DNA from: an uncultured Pseudomonadota bacterium
Lineage (GTDB): Bacteria; Pseudomonadota; Gammaproteobacteria; Steroidobacterales; Steroidobacteraceae
Direction: 5' to 3'
Length of the DNA: 44,316 nt
Assembly: GCA_903839465.1 (NCBI GenBank)
Contig: CAIMCI010000315.1
Span: forward strand, 1 to 44,316
Part shown: positions 33,481 through 41,796 of the stretch, in pieces
Layout of the letters: every line of letters starts with the position of its first letter
Numbering within the stretch: position 1 is the stretch's first letter
Program-made: the position numbers and the translations under genes
The notes under the pieces: model-generated
The model's input: only the letters and a program-made list of their open reading frames with translations
Told to the model about the DNA's origin: nothing
The model's database searches: none

Positions 33481-35670
33481 ATGCCGACGTCAAGCCGCCC
33501 GTGGTTCATTGCCGGCACTGCCACCCTCGCGGTATGGCTGGCCGGATGCGCGCGAGAACCCGTGGCACCCCCGCCCCCGCCGTCCGCTACCGCGACCCGG
33601 GCAGCGGCGGTCGACAGCGAGCGACTGGCCCGCGCCGAGCCCGAACAGTGGTTCACGCAGGGTCGCGACGCGAACGGCACGTACTTTTCCCCGCTGACCG
33701 ACATCACGCCCGACAACGTCGGCCGGCTGGGGTTTGCGTGGGCCTACAAGCTCGGTACGTCGCGTGGCCAGGAGGCGACGCCTCTGGTCATCGACGGCGT
33801 GCTCTACGCGTCGAGCAACTTCGGTCGCGTGTACGCGCTCGACGCGGCGAGCGGCAAGGAGCTCTGGAAGTACGACCCGCAGGTCGACGGCCAGTGGGCA
33901 CGTTACGCCTGTTGCGATGCGGTCAATCGTGGCCTCGTGGCGTTCGATGGCACGCTGTACGTCGGCGCGATCGACGGCTGGCTGCACGCCCTTGACGCCA
34001 AGACCGGCCAGCTGCGCTGGAGAATCGATACCCTGATCGGGCGGACGGAGCGCAAGCCCTACACCCTGACGGGTGCCCCGCTCCTCGCCGGCGACCTGAT
34101 CGTCGTCGGCAATGCCGGCGGTGACTTCGCCGGCGCCCGCGGCTACGTGACGGCCTACGATCGAAAGACCGGCGCCCAGCGCTGGCGCTTTTTCACGGTA
34201 CCGCGCAACCCGGCCGAGGGTCCCCAGGACCAACCCCATCTCGAGGCCGCCATCAAGACCTGGGACCGCGCCCATCCCTGGGATCGCGGCTCGGGCGGCA
34301 CCGTCTGGGACGGCATGGCCTACGACCCGGCGCTCGGGCTCGTCTACATCGGCACGGCGAACGCCGCGCCTTATAACAGCCACGGCAACGGCCGCAAGGG
34401 TGGCGACGAACTCTACGCCGCGTCGATCCTCGCGATCCGAGCCGACACCGGTGCCCTTGCCTGGTACTACCAGACGGTCCCCCAGGACCGCTGGGATTTC
34501 GACTCGACGCAGAAGCTGGTACTGGCGGACATCAGCCTCGACGGCAAGGCGCGCAAGGTCGTCATGCAGGCCGCCAAGAACGGCTTCTACTACGTGCTTG
34601 ACCGGCAAAGCGGCGAGCTGCTGTCGGCGCACAACTTTGCCGTCGTGACGTGGACCAAGGGCATCGACCCCAAGACGGGTCGGCCCATCCCCGCCAAGAC
34701 CGCCGACTACGACAACGGGCCGGCGCTGGTATTCCCGTCCGAGTCCGGCGCACACAGCTGGCAGCCGATGGCCTTCGATGCCGGACGGGGACTGACGTTC
34801 ATCCCGGTCATCGAGTCGGGCAATGTCATCGTCGAAGCCGAACACCGGCGTGCCGGGCTCGTCGAGGGCCAGTTCACGACGCCGGCGTTCACGCCGGAAG
34901 GCTACGATCCCAAGGCAATGCAGAGCCTGTATGGCGACCTGCCCGCCTTCAAGACGCTGGCCAGGGGGCTGAGCAACGACACCGCGTCGCGCGGCTTCCT
35001 GCGGGCCTGGAGCGTCGCCGAGCACCGAATCGTCTGGGAGGCACCGACCGCTTCCAGCTGGGACGGCGGCGTCATGGCGACCGCCGCCGGTGTCGTCTTC
35101 CAGGGTGACGCAAACGGCATGCTCAACGCCTATGCCGCCGACAGCGGCCGCAAGCTGGCGTCAATCAATGTCGGTTCATCGATGATGGCGGCGCCGATCA
35201 CCTACAAGGTCAACGGCACGCAGTACGTGGCGATCATCGCCGGCTACGGCGGCGGTGCGGTCATCACCGGTGCCCCCTTTGACCCGGCTTCGGCGGCCTA
35301 CCGGTACGGCAACGACGGCCGCGTCATTGCGCTGAAACTCGACGGACCCGCACCGCCGCTGCCGCCCGAGCGTACCGACCCGCCCTGGCCGACCCTGCCG
35401 GCAAAGCCGACCGACGCCGCCCAGGTCGCCGCCGGTGAACTCCTCTACAACCGCTACTGCAGCCGCTGCCACGTCTTCGGGCGCAGCATCCTGCCGGATC
35501 TGCGGCGGATGAGCCCGCAAACGCACGGCCTGTTCCGCACGATAGTCCTCGAAGGCGCCTACCGGGCCAAGGGCATGGGCCGCTTCGACGACGTACTGAA
35601 GCCCGAGGACGCCGACGCCATCCACGCGTATCTGATCAGCCAGGCCTGGCTGGCGCAGAGCCCGCCGTAG
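33481..35670 (+). CDS. PQQ-dependent quinohaemoprotein dehydrogenase, lipoprotein form
   Basis: ATG 33481 follows a GGAG site and gives 729 residues. The N-terminus has a lipobox (VWLAGC, C23), so the protein is probably membrane-anchored in the periplasm. The eight-bladed propeller carries the vicinal disulfide C144-C145 (RYACCDAVNRG), which sits against PQQ in alcohol dehydrogenases, and typical segments such as WDRGSGGTVWDGMAYDP and NDTASRGFLRAW. The C-terminal cytochrome c domain has C660-x2-C663-H664, with M699 as a likely axial ligand. It should oxidise an alcohol and pass electrons to a cytochrome. No PQQ biosynthesis genes are in the window. Confidence 0.9.
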   Translation: MPTSSRPWFIAGTATLAVWLAGCAREPVAPPPPPSATATRAAAVDSERLARAEPEQWFTQGRDANGTYFSPLTDITPDNVGRLGFAWAYKLGTSRGQEATPLVIDGVLYASSNFGRVYALDAASGKELWKYDPQVDGQWARYACCDAVNRGLVAFDGTLYVGAIDGWLHALDAKTGQLRWRIDTLIGRTERKPYTLTGAPLLAGDLIVVGNAGGDFAGARGYVTAYDRKTGAQRWRFFTVPRNPAEGPQDQPHLEAAIKTWDRAHPWDRGSGGTVWDGMAYDPALGLVYIGTANAAPYNSHGNGRKGGDELYAASILAIRADTGALAWYYQTVPQDRWDFDSTQKLVLADISLDGKARKVVMQAAKNGFYYVLDRQSGELLSAHNFAVVTWTKGIDPKTGRPIPAKTADYDNGPALVFPSESGAHSWQPMAFDAGRGLTFIPVIESGNVIVEAEHRRAGLVEGQFTTPAFTPEGYDPKAMQSLYGDLPAFKTLARGLSNDTASRGFLRAWSVAEHRIVWEAPTASSWDGGVMATAAGVVFQGDANGMLNAYAADSGRKLASINVGSSMMAAPITYKVNGTQYVAIIAGYGGGAVITGAPFDPASAAYRYGNDGRVIALKLDGPAPPLPPERTDPPWPTLPAKPTDAAQVAAGELLYNRYCSRCHVFGRSILPDLRRMSPQTHGLFRTIVLEGAYRAKGMGRFDDVLKPEDADAIHAYLISQAWLAQSPP

Positions 35671-35926: not shown

Positions 35927-36376
35927 ATGAATACACTGATCGACTGGCTTGTCGGCTGGCCTGAGCGCACCGCGCGCCACTTTACGTCGCTCGCCCCGCT
36001 GTTTGCCCGAGTCGTCTGTGGCTGGGCCTTCCTGTGGAGCGGCTGGGGCAAGCTGAACAACCTGCCGGCGATCACGGAGAATTTCATTTCGTGGGGCATT
36101 CCGTTCCCGCAGGTCCTGACGCCGTTTGTCTCTGGCGTCGAGTTTGTCGGCGGCATCTTCCTGCTCCTCGGCCTTTTCACCCGCATTTCGGCCGGCGCGC
36201 TTGGCGTTACGATGATCGTCGCCATCAAGTCGGCCAAATGGGACCAGGTCGACTCGCTGGAGACGCTGCTCGGCTTCGACGAAACCGAGTACCTGGCACT
36301 CTTCTTCTGGCTCGCCGTCGCCGGTGCCGGCAAGCTGTCGATTGACCACTGGCTGCGCCGTTACACCAAGTCGTGA
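35927..36376 (+). CDS. DoxX-family membrane protein (BufD-like by context)
   Basis: The product is 149 residues from ATG 35927 with GGAGAG upstream. Four hydrophobic segments and the phrases ARVVCGWAFLWSGWGKL and FVSGVEFVGGIFLLLGLFTR identify the DoxX/DUF417-like group. DoxX proteins commonly accompany MNIO-type RiPP metallophore operons, where they are called BufD. Here the gene is on the opposite strand to bufABC and converges on it. Its stop overlaps the start of the next gene by 4 nt (GTGA). About 255 nt upstream are non-coding. Confidence 0.8.
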   Translation: MNTLIDWLVGWPERTARHFTSLAPLFARVVCGWAFLWSGWGKLNNLPAITENFISWGIPFPQVLTPFVSGVEFVGGIFLLLGLFTRISAGALGVTMIVAIKSAKWDQVDSLETLLGFDETEYLALFFWLAVAGAGKLSIDHWLRRYTKS

Positions 36377-36798
36377 CTACCTTCCGGACGCAACTGCGCA
36401 ACCAGTCGCTGGCCATCCTCAGCCTGGTGATCGCCCTGACGAGCTTCAGCCACTCGGCGTGGCGAACGGAGCAGAGCGAGCAGAACCGGACGACGCGCCA
36501 GGCGGCGTTCCAGATGCTGGTGGCGCTCGGTCAGATGCAGGAAGTGGTCTACCGGGCACACTACGACCACGACGCGGTGCGCGGCAGTCCGCGCACCGGC
36601 TGGGTCTACGTGCAGACGATCAGCGACTTCAGTGCGGCAATGCCGGCCTCGGTCGGCCACGATGCGCAGCTGCTGCTCGAGGCCTGGCGTGATCACTGGG
36701 AAGGTCTCGGCACGCGGGACGACGACGCCGCCGCGATCAGTGACGCGGTGGATCACTGTCGGGCATCCGTCGTCGACACCCTGCGCTCGCTGCGCTGA
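36373..36798 (+). CDS. Unknown membrane-anchored protein, translationally coupled to DoxX
   Basis: GTG 36373 overlaps the DoxX stop by 4 nt, so the two are probably translated together. The 141-residue product has an N-terminal hydrophobic segment (SLAILSLVIALTSFSHSAW), then a helical, histidine- and acid-containing domain (VVYRAHYDHDAVRGSPRTGW, and WRDHWEGLGTRDDD). I recognise no family. The topology fits a small periplasm-facing protein held by one membrane helix. The tight coupling to DoxX suggests a joint role. Confidence 0.65.
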   Translation: MTTFRTQLRNQSLAILSLVIALTSFSHSAWRTEQSEQNRTTRQAAFQMLVALGQMQEVVYRAHYDHDAVRGSPRTGWVYVQTISDFSAAMPASVGHDAQLLLEAWRDHWEGLGTRDDDAAAISDAVDHCRASVVDTLRSLR

Positions 36799-36878
36799 CC
36801 CGGCTCCTTAGGGAACCAGACCCGGGGCACCCCGCGACCGCGATGGCAGGGTCCATGAGCCCCGCGGCGGGATGGTGC

Positions 36879-37670
36879 TCAGCCGGCGTGGCCGGCTATC
36901 GCGAAGGAAGCGATCAGCTCCTCGCTCAACCACGTCCGCAGGAACGAGGCGGCGCGCAGCGCCACCTCGGTCTCCTCGACGTCGGCGGCGAGCTTCTCGC
37001 ACAGGTCGCCAAACGTTGCGCCGCCGGCAACGGCCTCGACAGCACCGGCTTCGAGGGGCGACATCGACCGGAAGAAGGTCTGCGTGCCGCGCCGCCACGC
37101 AAGCCAGGTGGCTTCGGGTGCCGGAGCCAGCGCCGCGGGCGCGGACGCGAGGTCGTTGGCCCATCGCCACCACTCGACGGCGTTGGTCGCCAGCACGACG
37201 CGCCGCAACGATGCGCGCAGGGTAAAGGCGGCGTTCGGCCAATCCGTCGGCGCGACCGCGGCCAGCGCTTCCATGGGCAGCGGTGCGTCGTCCGGCGCGT
37301 CGAACACGTCCGCCAGCAGCCATTCCCAGCGGGCAAGCTCGCCAAGGGCTGCACCGGCCTCACCGGGGTTTCGCTCCACGACGAGCTGCCAGAGGTCGGC
37401 GCCGTAATAGCGGATGTTGTAGTGGCGCGAGGGATTTCTCTCGATATACGCGCGGGCAAGGTCATCGAACGCGTCGGGTCCCATCACTTTGCGTAGCGCG
37501 CCGTAGGGCACCCCGAGCGCCTCGGCCAGACGGCCGCGATAACCCTCCACGTAGGCGCCGAGCCGGGCGGGCAGGTCGCCACGCTCGGCGCCGGCCAGAT
37601 CGTCGGCGACGCGCGGCGCACGCGTGAGGACTTCCTGCTGAAAGTCGCGCTGCAGGGAAACGAGCGACAT
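36879..37670 (-). CDS. bufC: BufC/HvfC-type partner protein (DUF2063 family)
   Basis: This 263-residue protein begins [15 protein letters not shown] and contains RLGAYVEGYRGRLAEALGVPYGALRKVMG, the signature of the DUF2063 family. Members accompany MNIO enzymes in RiPP operons and are thought to present the precursor peptide to the enzyme. Its ATG overlaps the bufB stop by one nt (TGATG), a tight coupling. The C-terminal half resembles the second helical domain of HvfC proteins (LRTWLSEELIASF). It is the last gene of the minus-strand bufABC set. Confidence 0.82.
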   Translation of the reverse strand: MSLVSLQRDFQQEVLTRAPRVADDLAGAERGDLPARLGAYVEGYRGRLAEALGVPYGALRKVMGPDAFDDLARAYIERNPSRHYNIRYYGADLWQLVVERNPGEAGAALGELARWEWLLADVFDAPDDAPLPMEALAAVAPTDWPNAAFTLRASLRRVVLATNAVEWWRWANDLASAPAALAPAPEATWLAWRRGTQTFFRSMSPLEAGAVEAVAGGATFGDLCEKLAADVEETEVALRAASFLRTWLSEELIASFAIAGHAG

Positions 37671-38488
37671 CAGGCAGCCGCCTCGACGCCCGCGAGCCGC
37701 TCGGCAACCGCCAGTTCGTCGAGCAGCTCACCCAGCGGCGGAATGTTGGCGTCGCGCTCGATCATCGTACTGACGGCACCCAGACGCCGGACCGAGCGCT
37801 GATAGAGCGCCCACACCGGATCGGCGACCGGCGCATCGTGGGTGTCGATAATGAACGATTCCTGGCGCTCGTGGCCGGCCAGGTGGATCTGCGCGACGCG
37901 GTCGGCGGGAATACCGCGTAGGAATTCGTCGGGATCGAAACCGTGATTGACGCTGTTGACGTAGACATTGTTCACGTCGAGCAGCAGGAGGCAGTCGGCC
38001 TCGGAGGCAAGTTCGGCCAGAAACTGCCATTCCGTCATGTCGGAGGATCTATAGGCAACGTAGCTCGAGACGTTTTCCAGCAGGATCCGCCGTCCCAGCA
38101 GGTCCTGGACCTGGCGGATGCGGGGGACGAGGTGCCTGATGGCTTCCCCGGTATACGGCATCGGCATCAGATCGTGGAGATTGATGCCATCGACGCCGGT
38201 CCAGCACAGGTGGTCGGAGACCCATTGCGGCTCGACGCGGTCGACGAGGGCCTTCAGGTCCGCCAGATACCGCGCATCGAGGGGCGCCGTCGAGCCGATG
38301 GACAGCGACACGCCGTGCAGGACCACGGGATACCGGGCGCGGATCCGCTCGAGATAATGGAGCGGCCGGCCTCCGGGAATCAGGTAGTTCTCGGTCAGCG
38401 CCTCGACAAAACCGAGCCGCGGGCGGTCGGCCAGCAGGGCTTCGTAGTGATCCGGTCGAAGCCCCAGTCCAAAGCCCAGATTCCGCAC
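37670..38488 (-). CDS. bufB: BufB-type multinuclear non-haem iron oxidase (MNIO, DUF692)
   Basis: This 272-residue TIM-barrel protein starts at GTG 38488, with GGGAG nine nt upstream. MNIO signatures are [58 protein letters not shown] and ERDANIPP; the histidines and acidic residues in these would bind two or three irons. Enzymes of this family modify cysteine residues of precursor peptides, and in bufferin systems are reported to form thiooxazole-type heterocycles that bind copper. Position between a cysteine-rich small peptide gene and bufC supports this role. Confidence 0.87.
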
Positions 38489-38514
38489 GGACGAGATCTC
38501 CCAGGCGCAGAAGA

Positions 38515-38543
38515 CCCGGTCGGGAGCAGCGCTCCCGACCGGG
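38515..38543 (-). terminator. Perfect 13-bp hairpin between bufA and bufB
   Basis: CCCGGTCGGGAGC (38515-38527) and its exact complement (38531-38543) are separated by a 3-nt loop. The structure lies in the 72-nt gap after the bufA stop. On the transcript it is followed by a short pyrimidine-rich stretch (TCTTCTGCG) but no long T-run. It may act as a partial terminator or RNA-stabilising stem that keeps precursor expression above that of the enzyme genes. Confidence 0.6.
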
Positions 38544-38560
38544 CCGATCGACGGAAAGAC

Positions 38561-38812
38561 TTACTTTTTCGCGGCCTTCGCGGCGTCGCATTCCTTCTTC
38601 GTCATTTCGGAGAAGCCGGTGCCCTTGCAGGAGTTCTGGCCCTTGCAGGCGTTGTGCGCGGTCTTGCAGGCCGACTGGCCCTTGCACGCGTTCGCCCCGT
38701 CGCAATGCATCTTGGCTTCATCCGCAGCCGCCGTGCTGATCGACGCCACGCTGAAGAGCAGAGCGGCCGCCGTAGCAATCGCAGCGCCTGAGACAGTCTT
38801 GGTCATGGACAT
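38561..38812 (-). CDS. bufA: BufA-type cysteine-rich periplasmic metallophore precursor
   Basis: The 83-residue product has a signal peptide ending near residue 30 ([16 protein letters not shown]) and a mature part of about 53 residues. That part has six cysteines at 37, 43, 49, 56, 62 and 75, arranged as [24 protein letters not shown] and KKEC. The repeated C-K-G pattern matches the BufA2-type bufferins, exported RiPP metallophores that bind copper after modification by BufB. The start has GAGGAA six nt upstream. It is followed by bufB and bufC on the same strand after a strong hairpin. No ECF sigma factor gene is adjacent. Confidence 0.8.
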
Positions 38813-39075: not shown

Positions 39076-39483
39076 ATGTCCATTGCGATCAGCCACGTGC
39101 CGACGCTGAAGATCGGCCAGAACGTCACCTTCGCCAATGCCGCCTTCGTCGCCGACGGTTCCACCGCCGAGGGCGGTGACGGCACCGGTCCCAGTCCCCA
39201 CGAGATCTATGACGCCGCGCTGGGCGCGTGCAAGGCCATGACGATCTTGTGGTATGCGCGCCGCAAGTCGATTCCGGTCGACGACGTCCACGTGACGGTC
39301 ACGCACGACGCGAGCCAGGAGCGATCGGGCCGCTACGTCATCAGCGCGGCCATCACGGTTCGCGGCGCGCTGTCGGAGGAACAACTGGCGGAACTGCGGA
39401 CGGTCGCCGAGAAATGCCCGGTGCACAAGCTGATGACCGAGGTGACGACCGACATCCAGACCTCGCTGGCGCTCGAGCGCTGA
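39076..39483 (+). CDS. OsmC/Ohr-family peroxide-resistance-like protein
   Basis: The product is 135 residues from ATG 39076, with GGGAGG upstream; the frame's extension to 38899 is proline/arginine-rich and unlikely. The two peroxidatic-type cysteines are C52 (ALGACKAMTI) and C114 (EKCPVHKLM). PSPHEIYDAALGACKAM is typical of OsmC-like thiol peroxidases. Such proteins reduce organic hydroperoxides. The gene diverges from bufA across a 263-nt interval, and the pirin gene follows with a single-nt gap, so the two form an operon. Confidence 0.88.
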   Translation: MSIAISHVPTLKIGQNVTFANAAFVADGSTAEGGDGTGPSPHEIYDAALGACKAMTILWYARRKSIPVDDVHVTVTHDASQERSGRYVISAAITVRGALSEEQLAELRTVAEKCPVHKLMTEVTTDIQTSLALER

Positions 39484-39484
39484 C

Positions 39485-40360
39485 ATGCCATTGTTCGTCG
39501 ATGGCGCCGAGAAGGACCTGGGCGGCGGCTTCCACGTCACCCGGCTGCTGCCGTCCGCCAATTGCCGGACCGTCGGACCCTTTGTCTTTCTCGATCACTT
39601 CGGACCCGTGGTCCGCCAACCGGATCAGAATTTCGACGTACGGCCGCACCCCCACATCGGCCTCGCCACGGTAACCTACCTGTTCGATGGCGCCATGATG
39701 CACCGGGACAGCATCGGCTCCGTGCAGCGCATTGAAGCCGGCGCTGTCAACTGGATGACTGCCGGGCGGGGCATCGTGCACTCGGAACGGGCGCCGGACG
39801 ACCTGCGCGGTGTGGCGCACCGGATGCACGGCCTGCAGATGTGGGTAGGCCTGCCCACCGAGCTCGAAGAGTGCGCGCCCTCCTTCTCGCACACGCCGGC
39901 CGACGCCCTGCCGGAGTTTTCGGTCCAGGGCTGCCCCGTGCGGCTTCTGGTCGGCTCGGCCTTCGGGCACGTGTCGCCCGTGGTGCCGGCATCGGACACG
40001 CTTTACGTGCACCTGAAGCTGAACGCCGGGGATGCGATCGACCTGCCGCTCCTGGCGCCGGAATTGGCGGTTTACCCGGCCGATGCCGACATCGACGTGG
40101 ACGGCAGGACCGTATCGCCGCGTAGTCTCGCGGTTGTGAATGGCCAACGGGCGACCCGGATCGAAGCCGCGCAACCGACCAACGTCGTGCTCGTCGGTGG
40201 CGCGCCCCTGGATGGGCCTCGCCACCTGTCCTGGAACTTCGTCTCGCACAGTCGCGAGCGGCTCCTGCAGGCCGCACTCGACTGGCAGCAGCGCCGCTTT
40301 TCCGATATTGCGGGCGAAACGGATTTCATTCCGCTGCCGGACTACGTGGCGACCCGCTAG
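39485..40360 (+). CDS. Pirin-family cupin protein
   Basis: This 291-residue bicupin of the pirin family has the N-terminal metal site H55 and H57 (RPHPHIGLATVTY), H99 and E101 (GRGIVHSER). The phrase HGLQMWVGLP is also characteristic. Some bacterial pirins are quercetinases, others affect metabolism through protein contacts, so the role is uncertain. The ATG lies one nt after the OsmC stop. A nested inverted repeat follows downstream, between it and the convergent SDR gene. Confidence 0.88.
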   Translation: MPLFVDGAEKDLGGGFHVTRLLPSANCRTVGPFVFLDHFGPVVRQPDQNFDVRPHPHIGLATVTYLFDGAMMHRDSIGSVQRIEAGAVNWMTAGRGIVHSERAPDDLRGVAHRMHGLQMWVGLPTELEECAPSFSHTPADALPEFSVQGCPVRLLVGSAFGHVSPVVPASDTLYVHLKLNAGDAIDLPLLAPELAVYPADADIDVDGRTVSPRSLAVVNGQRATRIEAAQPTNVVLVGGAPLDGPRHLSWNFVSHSRERLLQAALDWQQRRFSDIAGETDFIPLPDYVATR

Positions 40361-40458: not shown

Positions 40459-41202
40459 TCAGATCTGGCCGATCCCGCCGTCGATCGTCAGCTCGGCACC
40501 CAGTACATAGGCCGCGTCGTCACTGGCAAGATAGGCAACGCCAGCAGCGATGTCATCGGCCGTCGCGAACCGACCGATGGGAACGGTCTTCAGCAGCGCT
40601 TCCGCCGTGGCGTTCAGCTCCGCTTCGCTCAGGCCGAGGCGACCGAATATCGGCGTAAACGTCGCGCCCGGGCTGACGGCGTTGACCCGGATCTTGCGCG
40701 GCAGGAGCTCTGCCGCAAAGGTCCTGGCCAGCGAACGGACTGCCGCCTTGGTTGCGCTGTAGATGCCGATGCCCGGCCAGCCCTTGGTGTTCACCGTCGA
40801 GCTGTTCAGCACGATTGCGCCGCCGTCGTTCAGGTGCGGGAGGGCTTTCTGTACCGTGAAATAGAGGCCCTTCAGGTTGATATCGACGATGTCATCGAAA
40901 AACTCCTCCGTGGTGTCCGCGAGCGGCGCGCTGCGATAGACGCCGGCGTTGGCGAACAGCACGTCGATGCGGCCAACCTTGGCGGCAATCTCGGCATACA
41001 TGCGCTCGATGTCGGCGACCTTGCCCACGTCGGCCTGGATCGCAACGAAACCGTGCGCACTGGCCTCGGCGGCGAGTGTCTTGGGGTCACGGCCGACGAT
41101 CACGACGCGCGCGCCCTCCTTCTTCAGGCGAATCGCGGTCGCGAGGCCGATGCCACTGTTGCCACCGGTAATAACCGCTGTTTTTCCTTCAAACCGATTC
41201 AT
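40459..41202 (-). CDS. Short-chain dehydrogenase/reductase
   Basis: This 247-residue SDR has the cofactor motif TGGNSGIG (12-19), NAG in LFANAGVYR, and the catalytic triad S135, Y148 and K152 (YSATK). The C-terminus GAELTIDGGIGQI is typical of the FabG-like classical group. The arginines near residue 38 suggest NADP preference. ATG 41202 follows AAGGAG. It lies 39 nt after the carboxymuconolactone-decarboxylase-like gene and is probably co-transcribed with it. Substrate unknown. Confidence 0.9.
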   Translation of the reverse strand: MNRFEGKTAVITGGNSGIGLATAIRLKKEGARVVIVGRDPKTLAAEASAHGFVAIQADVGKVADIERMYAEIAAKVGRIDVLFANAGVYRSAPLADTTEEFFDDIVDINLKGLYFTVQKALPHLNDGGAIVLNSSTVNTKGWPGIGIYSATKAAVRSLARTFAAELLPRKIRVNAVSPGATFTPIFGRLGLSEAELNATAEALLKTVPIGRFATADDIAAGVAYLASDDAAYVLGAELTIDGGIGQI

Positions 41203-41241
41203 AGCTTTCTCCTTGAGATTGGGGGTTGACCGACCGGCGAC

Positions 41242-41796
41242 TCAGGCTGCCGCCTGACGGGGCGTGACAACCGGAAAGTCGATGACAGTCCCGGCAACCT
41301 CATTGACGTAGTTGGTGAAGGTGTTGAGGGCGACGGCGAGCACGATCTCGACGACCTCGGCGTCCGAATAGCCAGCGTCGCGCACGGCCTTCAGCTCGAC
41401 GTCGCTCACATGACCACGCGCACGAACGACCTGGGTTGCAAACCGCACGGCGGCGTGGGCCTTGATGTCATTGGACGAGCCGTTGCGATTGGCAGTGATT
41501 TCCGCGTCGTCGAGCTTGGCGACATTGCGACCGAGGTAGGTGTGCGCCGACAGGCAGTAGCCGCAGCCATTGACCTCGGCCACCGCGAGGGCGATCCGCT
41601 CCTGGGTCTTGGCATCGAGCGAGGCGCCGCCGAACGAACCCGACAGGGCGAGGTAGCCCTTGAGGGCCGCCGGACTGTTGCCGACCACGCGGAACAGATT
41701 CGGCACGGATCCGAGGCTCTTCGCGACGGCGTTCAGCGACGCGCGCGAGGCTTCGGGGGAGGAATCGACAGAATCAGGGGTATGCAGACGCGACAT
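41242..41796 (-). CDS. Carboxymuconolactone decarboxylase / AhpD-like peroxidase-related protein
   Basis: This 184-residue helical protein has the redox motif C78-x2-C81 followed by H85 (NGCGYCLSAHTYLG), the hallmark of the AhpD-like group. LNTFTNYVNEVAGTVIDFP at the C-terminus is found in CMD-family proteins often paired with LysR regulators and SDRs. It could reduce peroxides or act on lactones. ATG 41796 follows AAAGGA. The gene is divergent from the LysR regulator, its likely controller. Confidence 0.85.
   Translation of the reverse strand: MSRLHTPDSVDSSPEASRASLNAVAKSLGSVPNLFRVVGNSPAALKGYLALSGSFGGASLDAKTQERIALAVAEVNGCGYCLSAHTYLGRNVAKLDDAEITANRNGSSNDIKAHAAVRFATQVVRARGHVSDVELKAVRDAGYSDAEVVEIVLAVALNTFTNYVNEVAGTVIDFPVVTPRQAAA

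Follow-up and report, generated by a model that had tools for sequence, protein, structure and literature searches.

Gene content and organization of the bufferin locus

The stretch of DNA analysed, 44,316 nt in length and referred to below as the window, belongs to a genome numbered G000 here; related genomes (G), contigs (C) and loci (L) are numbered in the same manner. Three bufferin genes are located on the minus strand in the order bufA, bufB, bufC, and convergent with them are doxX and a gene coding for a small protein termed UNK (Table 1). The bufA product shows a signal-peptide-like hydrophobic N terminus followed by six cysteine residues, as read from the translation by eye, and the bufC and bufB genes overlap by 1 nt. 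The C-terminal part of BufC is possibly RRE-like (PqqD match with E = 0.057 and 14.2 bits, under the cut-off of 23.4), and the comparison of BufC with the HvfC model gave an E value of 0.07.

Table 1. Genes of the bufferin locus, their positions in the window, and family matches of their products
Gene	Product	Position	Strand	Family match
bufA	BufA2-type bufferin precursor, 83 aa	38561..38812	-	NF050166, 84.4 bits (cut-off 60)
bufB	MNIO bufferin maturase, 272 aa	37670..38488	-	NF050167, 383 bits (cut-off 310); PF05114 (MbnB_TglH_ChrH), 378 bits
bufC	Partner protein, 263 aa	36879..37670	-	PF09836 (DUF2063), 54.1 bits (cut-off 27.2)
doxX	DoxX membrane protein, 149 aa	35927..36376	+	PF07681, 77 bits (cut-off 23.6)
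UNK	141 aa, with a single N-terminal TM helix plus a predicted bundle of four helices	36373..36798	+	No Pfam or NCBIfam family

With a BufA2 precursor containing six cysteines, a BufB maturase, a DUF2063-type BufC, the gene order bufABC, and a DoxX gene, the locus corresponds to the Buf2 (BufA2, Buf_6/12Cys) clusters. It differs from these in the position of the DoxX gene on the opposite strand, in the affiliation of its product to another clade than the six co-directional DoxX-like genes of relatives, and in the addition of UNK behind doxX. The ends of UNK (36798) and bufC (36879) are separated by 80 nt; scans of this junction for promoters, terminators and RNA folds yielded nothing above shuffled sequences. 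The original prediction had described a bufferin locus with split gene order, comprising bufA, bufB and bufC on the minus strand and a convergent DoxX gene on the opposite one. All five genes were indeed found where it had placed them, and BufA and BufB pass the curated cut-offs; its span of 36373–38812, however, left doxX outside.

Divergent from bufA, an OsmC-like and a pirin gene occupy positions 39076–40360 of the plus strand. Counterparts also adjoin bufA in G002 (68% and 66% identity), while the stretches of G001 and G493 revealed none. Genes coding for a short-chain dehydrogenase and a carboxymuconolactone-decarboxylase-family protein are located beyond the pirin gene on the minus strand (40459–41796), and a PQQ-dependent dehydrogenase-like gene with a C-terminal cytochrome c domain lies upstream of doxX on the same, plus strand (33502–35670).

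The DoxX protein and its linkage to bufferin genes

The best NCBIfam match of the window DoxX is the HvfX family (NF050144), the DoxX of copper-binding RiPP clusters, although the score of 72.5 bits does not reach the curated cut-off of 80. DoxX is described as a core gene of bufferin clusters, and stand-alone bufferin precursor genes are reported, in PMC12452194; according to PMC13097082, DoxX may additionally contribute to copper binding. With regard to the expectation that DoxX usually closes such operons, a co-directional DoxX-like ORF behind bufC was observed in 6 of the 24 loci (out of 30 bufB loci) that were inspected by eye, with L079 confirmed by Pfam. Profile matches showed a co-directional DoxX also at all four order-level loci whose BufB scored under the cut-off (L084–L087).

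Close matches to the window DoxX (E ≤ 1e-30) occur at 50 places in 46 of the 217 family genomes. A BufA2 match is located within 3.5 kb at 28 of these places and within 500 bp at 21. Of these BufA2 matches, that of G433 is weak (34 bits), and those of G431 and G513 are truncated at contig ends. The linked places are from five genera and show three layouts, namely doxX followed by bufA (20 places), convergent genes (seven; G000, G001, G002, G493, G510, G512 and G513), and bufA followed by doxX (one; G028). Four genomes (G000, G001, G002, G493) encode BufB on the doxX contig at a distance of no more than 3.5 kb, whereas it is 8–26 kb away in G429, G430, G432 and G433; the contig of G431 ends inside bufA. 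At L134 (G028), L137 (G486), L140 (G474), L150–L152, L156–L158 and L160, the neighbour of doxX is a co-directional solo BufA2 gene, and no BufB match of the same genome is present on the contigs of these loci.

In a tree of 25 places of the window clade and the six co-directional DoxX-like genes found behind bufC in relatives, the window clade was separate from the latter (support 100/100); the co-directional genes form long branches, and many forks are weakly supported. A convergent DoxX that stands beside the bufferin genes by chance and is unrelated to them would be compatible with this separation and with the 22 of 50 orthologue places that lack a BufA2 match within 3.5 kb, some of them at contig ends. 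Such a coincidence is nevertheless very improbable in view of the linkage at 28 places in five genera and three layouts (20, 7 and 1), which upholds the assignment of the convergent DoxX to the bufferin genes. The window DoxX is a member of a bufferin-linked DoxX clade, and since this linkage occurs in several layouts, the locus represents a lineage variant in the layout of a known cluster.

The DoxX clade adjoins bufferin precursor genes mostly without bufBC within a few kb, and mining by bufABC operons alone would therefore miss it. The contribution of DoxX to bufferins could be studied most simply in the compact doxX-bufA pairs, and the link between the two genes is the useful residue of the analysis.

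Sequence and predicted fold of UNK

In agreement with the description of UNK as a membrane-anchored protein of no known family, Pfam gave nothing at E ≤ 1 and the best NCBIfam match had an E value of 0.11; searches of both and of PHROGs, PDB sequences, plasmids and phages returned nothing usable. Weak matches to NusB (E = 0.11), to one member each of four Pfam families (E = 0.11–0.19), to one member each of four PHROGs (best E = 0.0092), and to PDB sequences (best E = 0.41) were judged to be due to chance. When the window is compared with G002, the dN and dS values of UNK (0.17 and 0.83) are similar to those of DoxX (0.135 and 0.89) and BufB (0.168 and 1.02), indicating a constrained gene under purifying selection rather than a chance ORF.

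The soluble part of UNK had been characterized as rich in histidine and acidic residues. The 141 residues do contain six His and 16 Asp plus Glu, with an HYDHD stretch at positions 63–67, a composition that would suit a protein which itself binds metal through its histidines and acids. In a ten-row alignment of homologues, however, no histidine is invariant: H63 is nearly so, and the other five are neither invariant nor nearly invariant, the invariant columns being G71, G76, W77, V80, D85, V94, W105, L112 and L140. This pattern would be more in keeping with a structural core than with a metal site, and metal binding by UNK appears extremely improbable.

A structure model built from two sequences (mean pLDDT 81, pTM 0.74) predicts an N-terminal helix at residues 2–32, which holds the hydrophobic segment, and further helices at 36–65, 73–87, 92–112 and 116–140. 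Foldseek searches with the model gave no match at E ≤ 0.001. VIA-align superposed it on assorted generic helical bundles with Z scores of up to 11.2 (a catenin domain), matches which, according to the notes of VIA-align, may reflect just a common arrangement. Four-helix-bundle sensor domains such as those of QseE (8jwd, Z = 9.6), Tar (2asr, Z = 9.5) and NarQ (6xyn, Z = 9.3) also superpose on the model, with Z scores of 9.1–9.6 that unrelated bundles reach as well; in contrast to these sensors, the 141-residue UNK has no signalling domain. UNK has the appearance of an orphan helical-bundle protein with a single TM segment whose gene came to lie behind doxX.

Occurrence and genomic context of UNK homologues

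UNK was detected in 11 of 59 relatives by single-sequence search, and in 21 of 217 family genomes and 24 of 369 class genomes with a 10-row profile, some of the class-level matches being partial or containing in-frame stops. The profile also matched 6 of 349 genomes of a phylum sample, all six in the same class; the phylum-sample genomes G819, G874, G902 and G920 are outside the count and context survey that follow. Among 51 genomes with UNK homologues from three samples, the gene is located beside DoxX and bufferin genes in three, two of them from the window genus and one from another genus. In the remaining 48, a bufferin link is absent from the stretches examined, which were limited in length and in some cases cut by contig ends.

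Within the family, a BufA2 gene is located no more than 3.5 kb from UNK at 3 of 22 places (G000, G002, G493), and at these three UNK also adjoins DoxX; contig ends are near several of the remaining 19 places, as in G428. For the 30 UNK genomes outside the family, no match to BufA, BufB, BufC or DoxX profiles was found near UNK in stretches of 12–20 kb from eight order-level genomes (two partial pieces in the case of G038) and of up to about 1.5 kb per side from 22 class-level genomes, a scan in which remote DoxX proteins can be missed because the DOXX profile derives from just three closely related proteins. At 26 loci elsewhere, no gene recurred next to UNK, apart from cases of synteny or of a single neighbour common to congeners. 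Neighbouring genes, with functions assigned by eye, were Fic-like, glutaredoxin-like, transporter and esterase genes; outside the family, gene calls followed a crude GC-by-codon-position rule, which failed in low-GC loci.

These data do not support the proposal that UNK is a new component of metallophore handling: its homologues are found mostly outside bufferin loci. They are located at such loci in three genomes out of 51, all three among the 21 of the family and none, in the stretches examined, among the 30 outside it, and the three represent one clade. The pairing with DoxX likewise largely lacks conservation, being confined to one clade and 3 of 22 family places, and G001 has DoxX without UNK. 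The original prediction is borne out for the bufferin locus, its split order and the membership of DoxX, but not for UNK. As the UNK family is scattered and nearly always encoded elsewhere, UNK is probably a passenger rather than an additional component of the copper system; on present evidence, it is not to be entered as a bufferin component, which removes a false lead.

The doxX-UNK junction and co-occurrence of the two genes

In line with the predicted coupling, doxX and UNK share 4 nt, the GTG start codon of UNK being part of a GTGA that also holds the DoxX stop codon. The corresponding sequence is ATGA in G002 and TAATG in G493, an overlapping junction thus being common to the three linked species. 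A tree was calculated from 45 UNK proteins of 44 genomes, without seven of the 51 genomes that have partial or stop-bearing sequences (G063, G415, G250, G241, G105, G220, G556); in it, the three linked proteins form one clade with support values of 99/98, suggesting that the pairing with doxX probably arose once; cluster transfer between the two genera is possible. UNK and DoxX are on different contigs in G512 and G513, the next sisters of the linked clade, and in G001 of the window genus, DoxX is convergent with bufCBA and no UNK match was found.

Counted against the passenger reading are the co-occurrence of UNK with DoxX, the kept junction, the co-presence of BufB, and the limited stretches available in fragmented assemblies. 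DoxX of this clade is present in 18 of 21 UNK genomes of the family versus 28 of 196 others (Fisher test, 2.8e-11, with genomes taken as independent); since the 18 genomes belong to five genera, with ten of them in g18, ancestry may explain the co-occurrence. Among the relatives, BufB was found in 10 of the 11 with UNK and in 31 of the 48 others.

The co-occurrence with DoxX keeps a lineage-specific role of UNK possible. UNK might serve this DoxX clade as an accessory protein, for instance as a helical partner anchored in the membrane, and aid bufferin handling, acting in trans where the genes are unlinked and in cis in the window lineage; the 18 of 21 shared genomes, the overlapping junction in three of three linked species and the purifying selection on UNK are consistent with such a role. 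On the other hand, UNK is unlinked at 19 of 22 family places, G001 retains DoxX without it, and three family genomes (G460, G552 and G553, the last two 75% and 87% complete) contain UNK without this DoxX. Outside the family, no close relative of this DoxX (E ≤ 1e-30) is present in any of the eight order-level UNK genomes, three of which (G037, G038, G050) gave remote DoxX matches. An accessory function of UNK seems unlikely.

Proposed roles of the gene products

We consider it probable that the locus is a Buf2-type bufferin cluster with a bufferin-linked DoxX, and that UNK is a neighbour which joined it once, is co-translated, and stands outside the bufferin system. Judging from the protein families and the literature, BufB and BufC would modify cysteine residues of the BufA2 precursor, and modified BufA2 would be exported and buffer excess periplasmic copper. 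DoxX is a representative, here on the opposite strand, of the clade whose genes lie next to those of bufferin precursors. The family of UNK is scattered and consists of small proteins with a membrane anchor and a predicted helical bundle, which are normally encoded alone. UNK probably became a neighbour of doxX once, either in the ancestry of the two genera or through transfer of the cluster, and as a result it is now probably co-translated with DoxX, most likely keeping its own role in the envelope.

A metallopeptidase-like gene near bufferin genes of relatives

A metallopeptidase-like gene with an HExxH motif is located between bufC and UNK in G002 and G493, and behind a solo bufA in G512, G513 and G511. 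For its product, Pfam returned nothing at E ≤ 0.1, and the NCBIfam matches to flagellinolysin (18.4 bits, cut-off 205) and CopD (17.4 bits, cut-off 195) were weak. In G000, a copy is encoded at the beginning of contig C80, with no bufferin matches in the 2.3 kb seen there, and a relic of the gene was not found in the window by tblastn. Conceivably, a larger bufferin cluster formed in the window genus, G493 and g23, in which bufABC, or bufA alone, is followed by a secreted HExxH peptidase-like gene next to the bufferin-linked DoxX (coupled to UNK in three species). DoxX, UNK and the peptidase would then jointly process, retain or recycle mature bufferin in the envelope, and the window genome would have lost the peptidase from the cluster; we regard this scenario as quite unlikely. 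The metallopeptidase-like gene occurs in 38 of the 217 family genomes and lies beside bufferin genes at 5 of 30 loci examined, namely L055 (between bufC and UNK), L161 (7378–8412), L169, L163 and L164.
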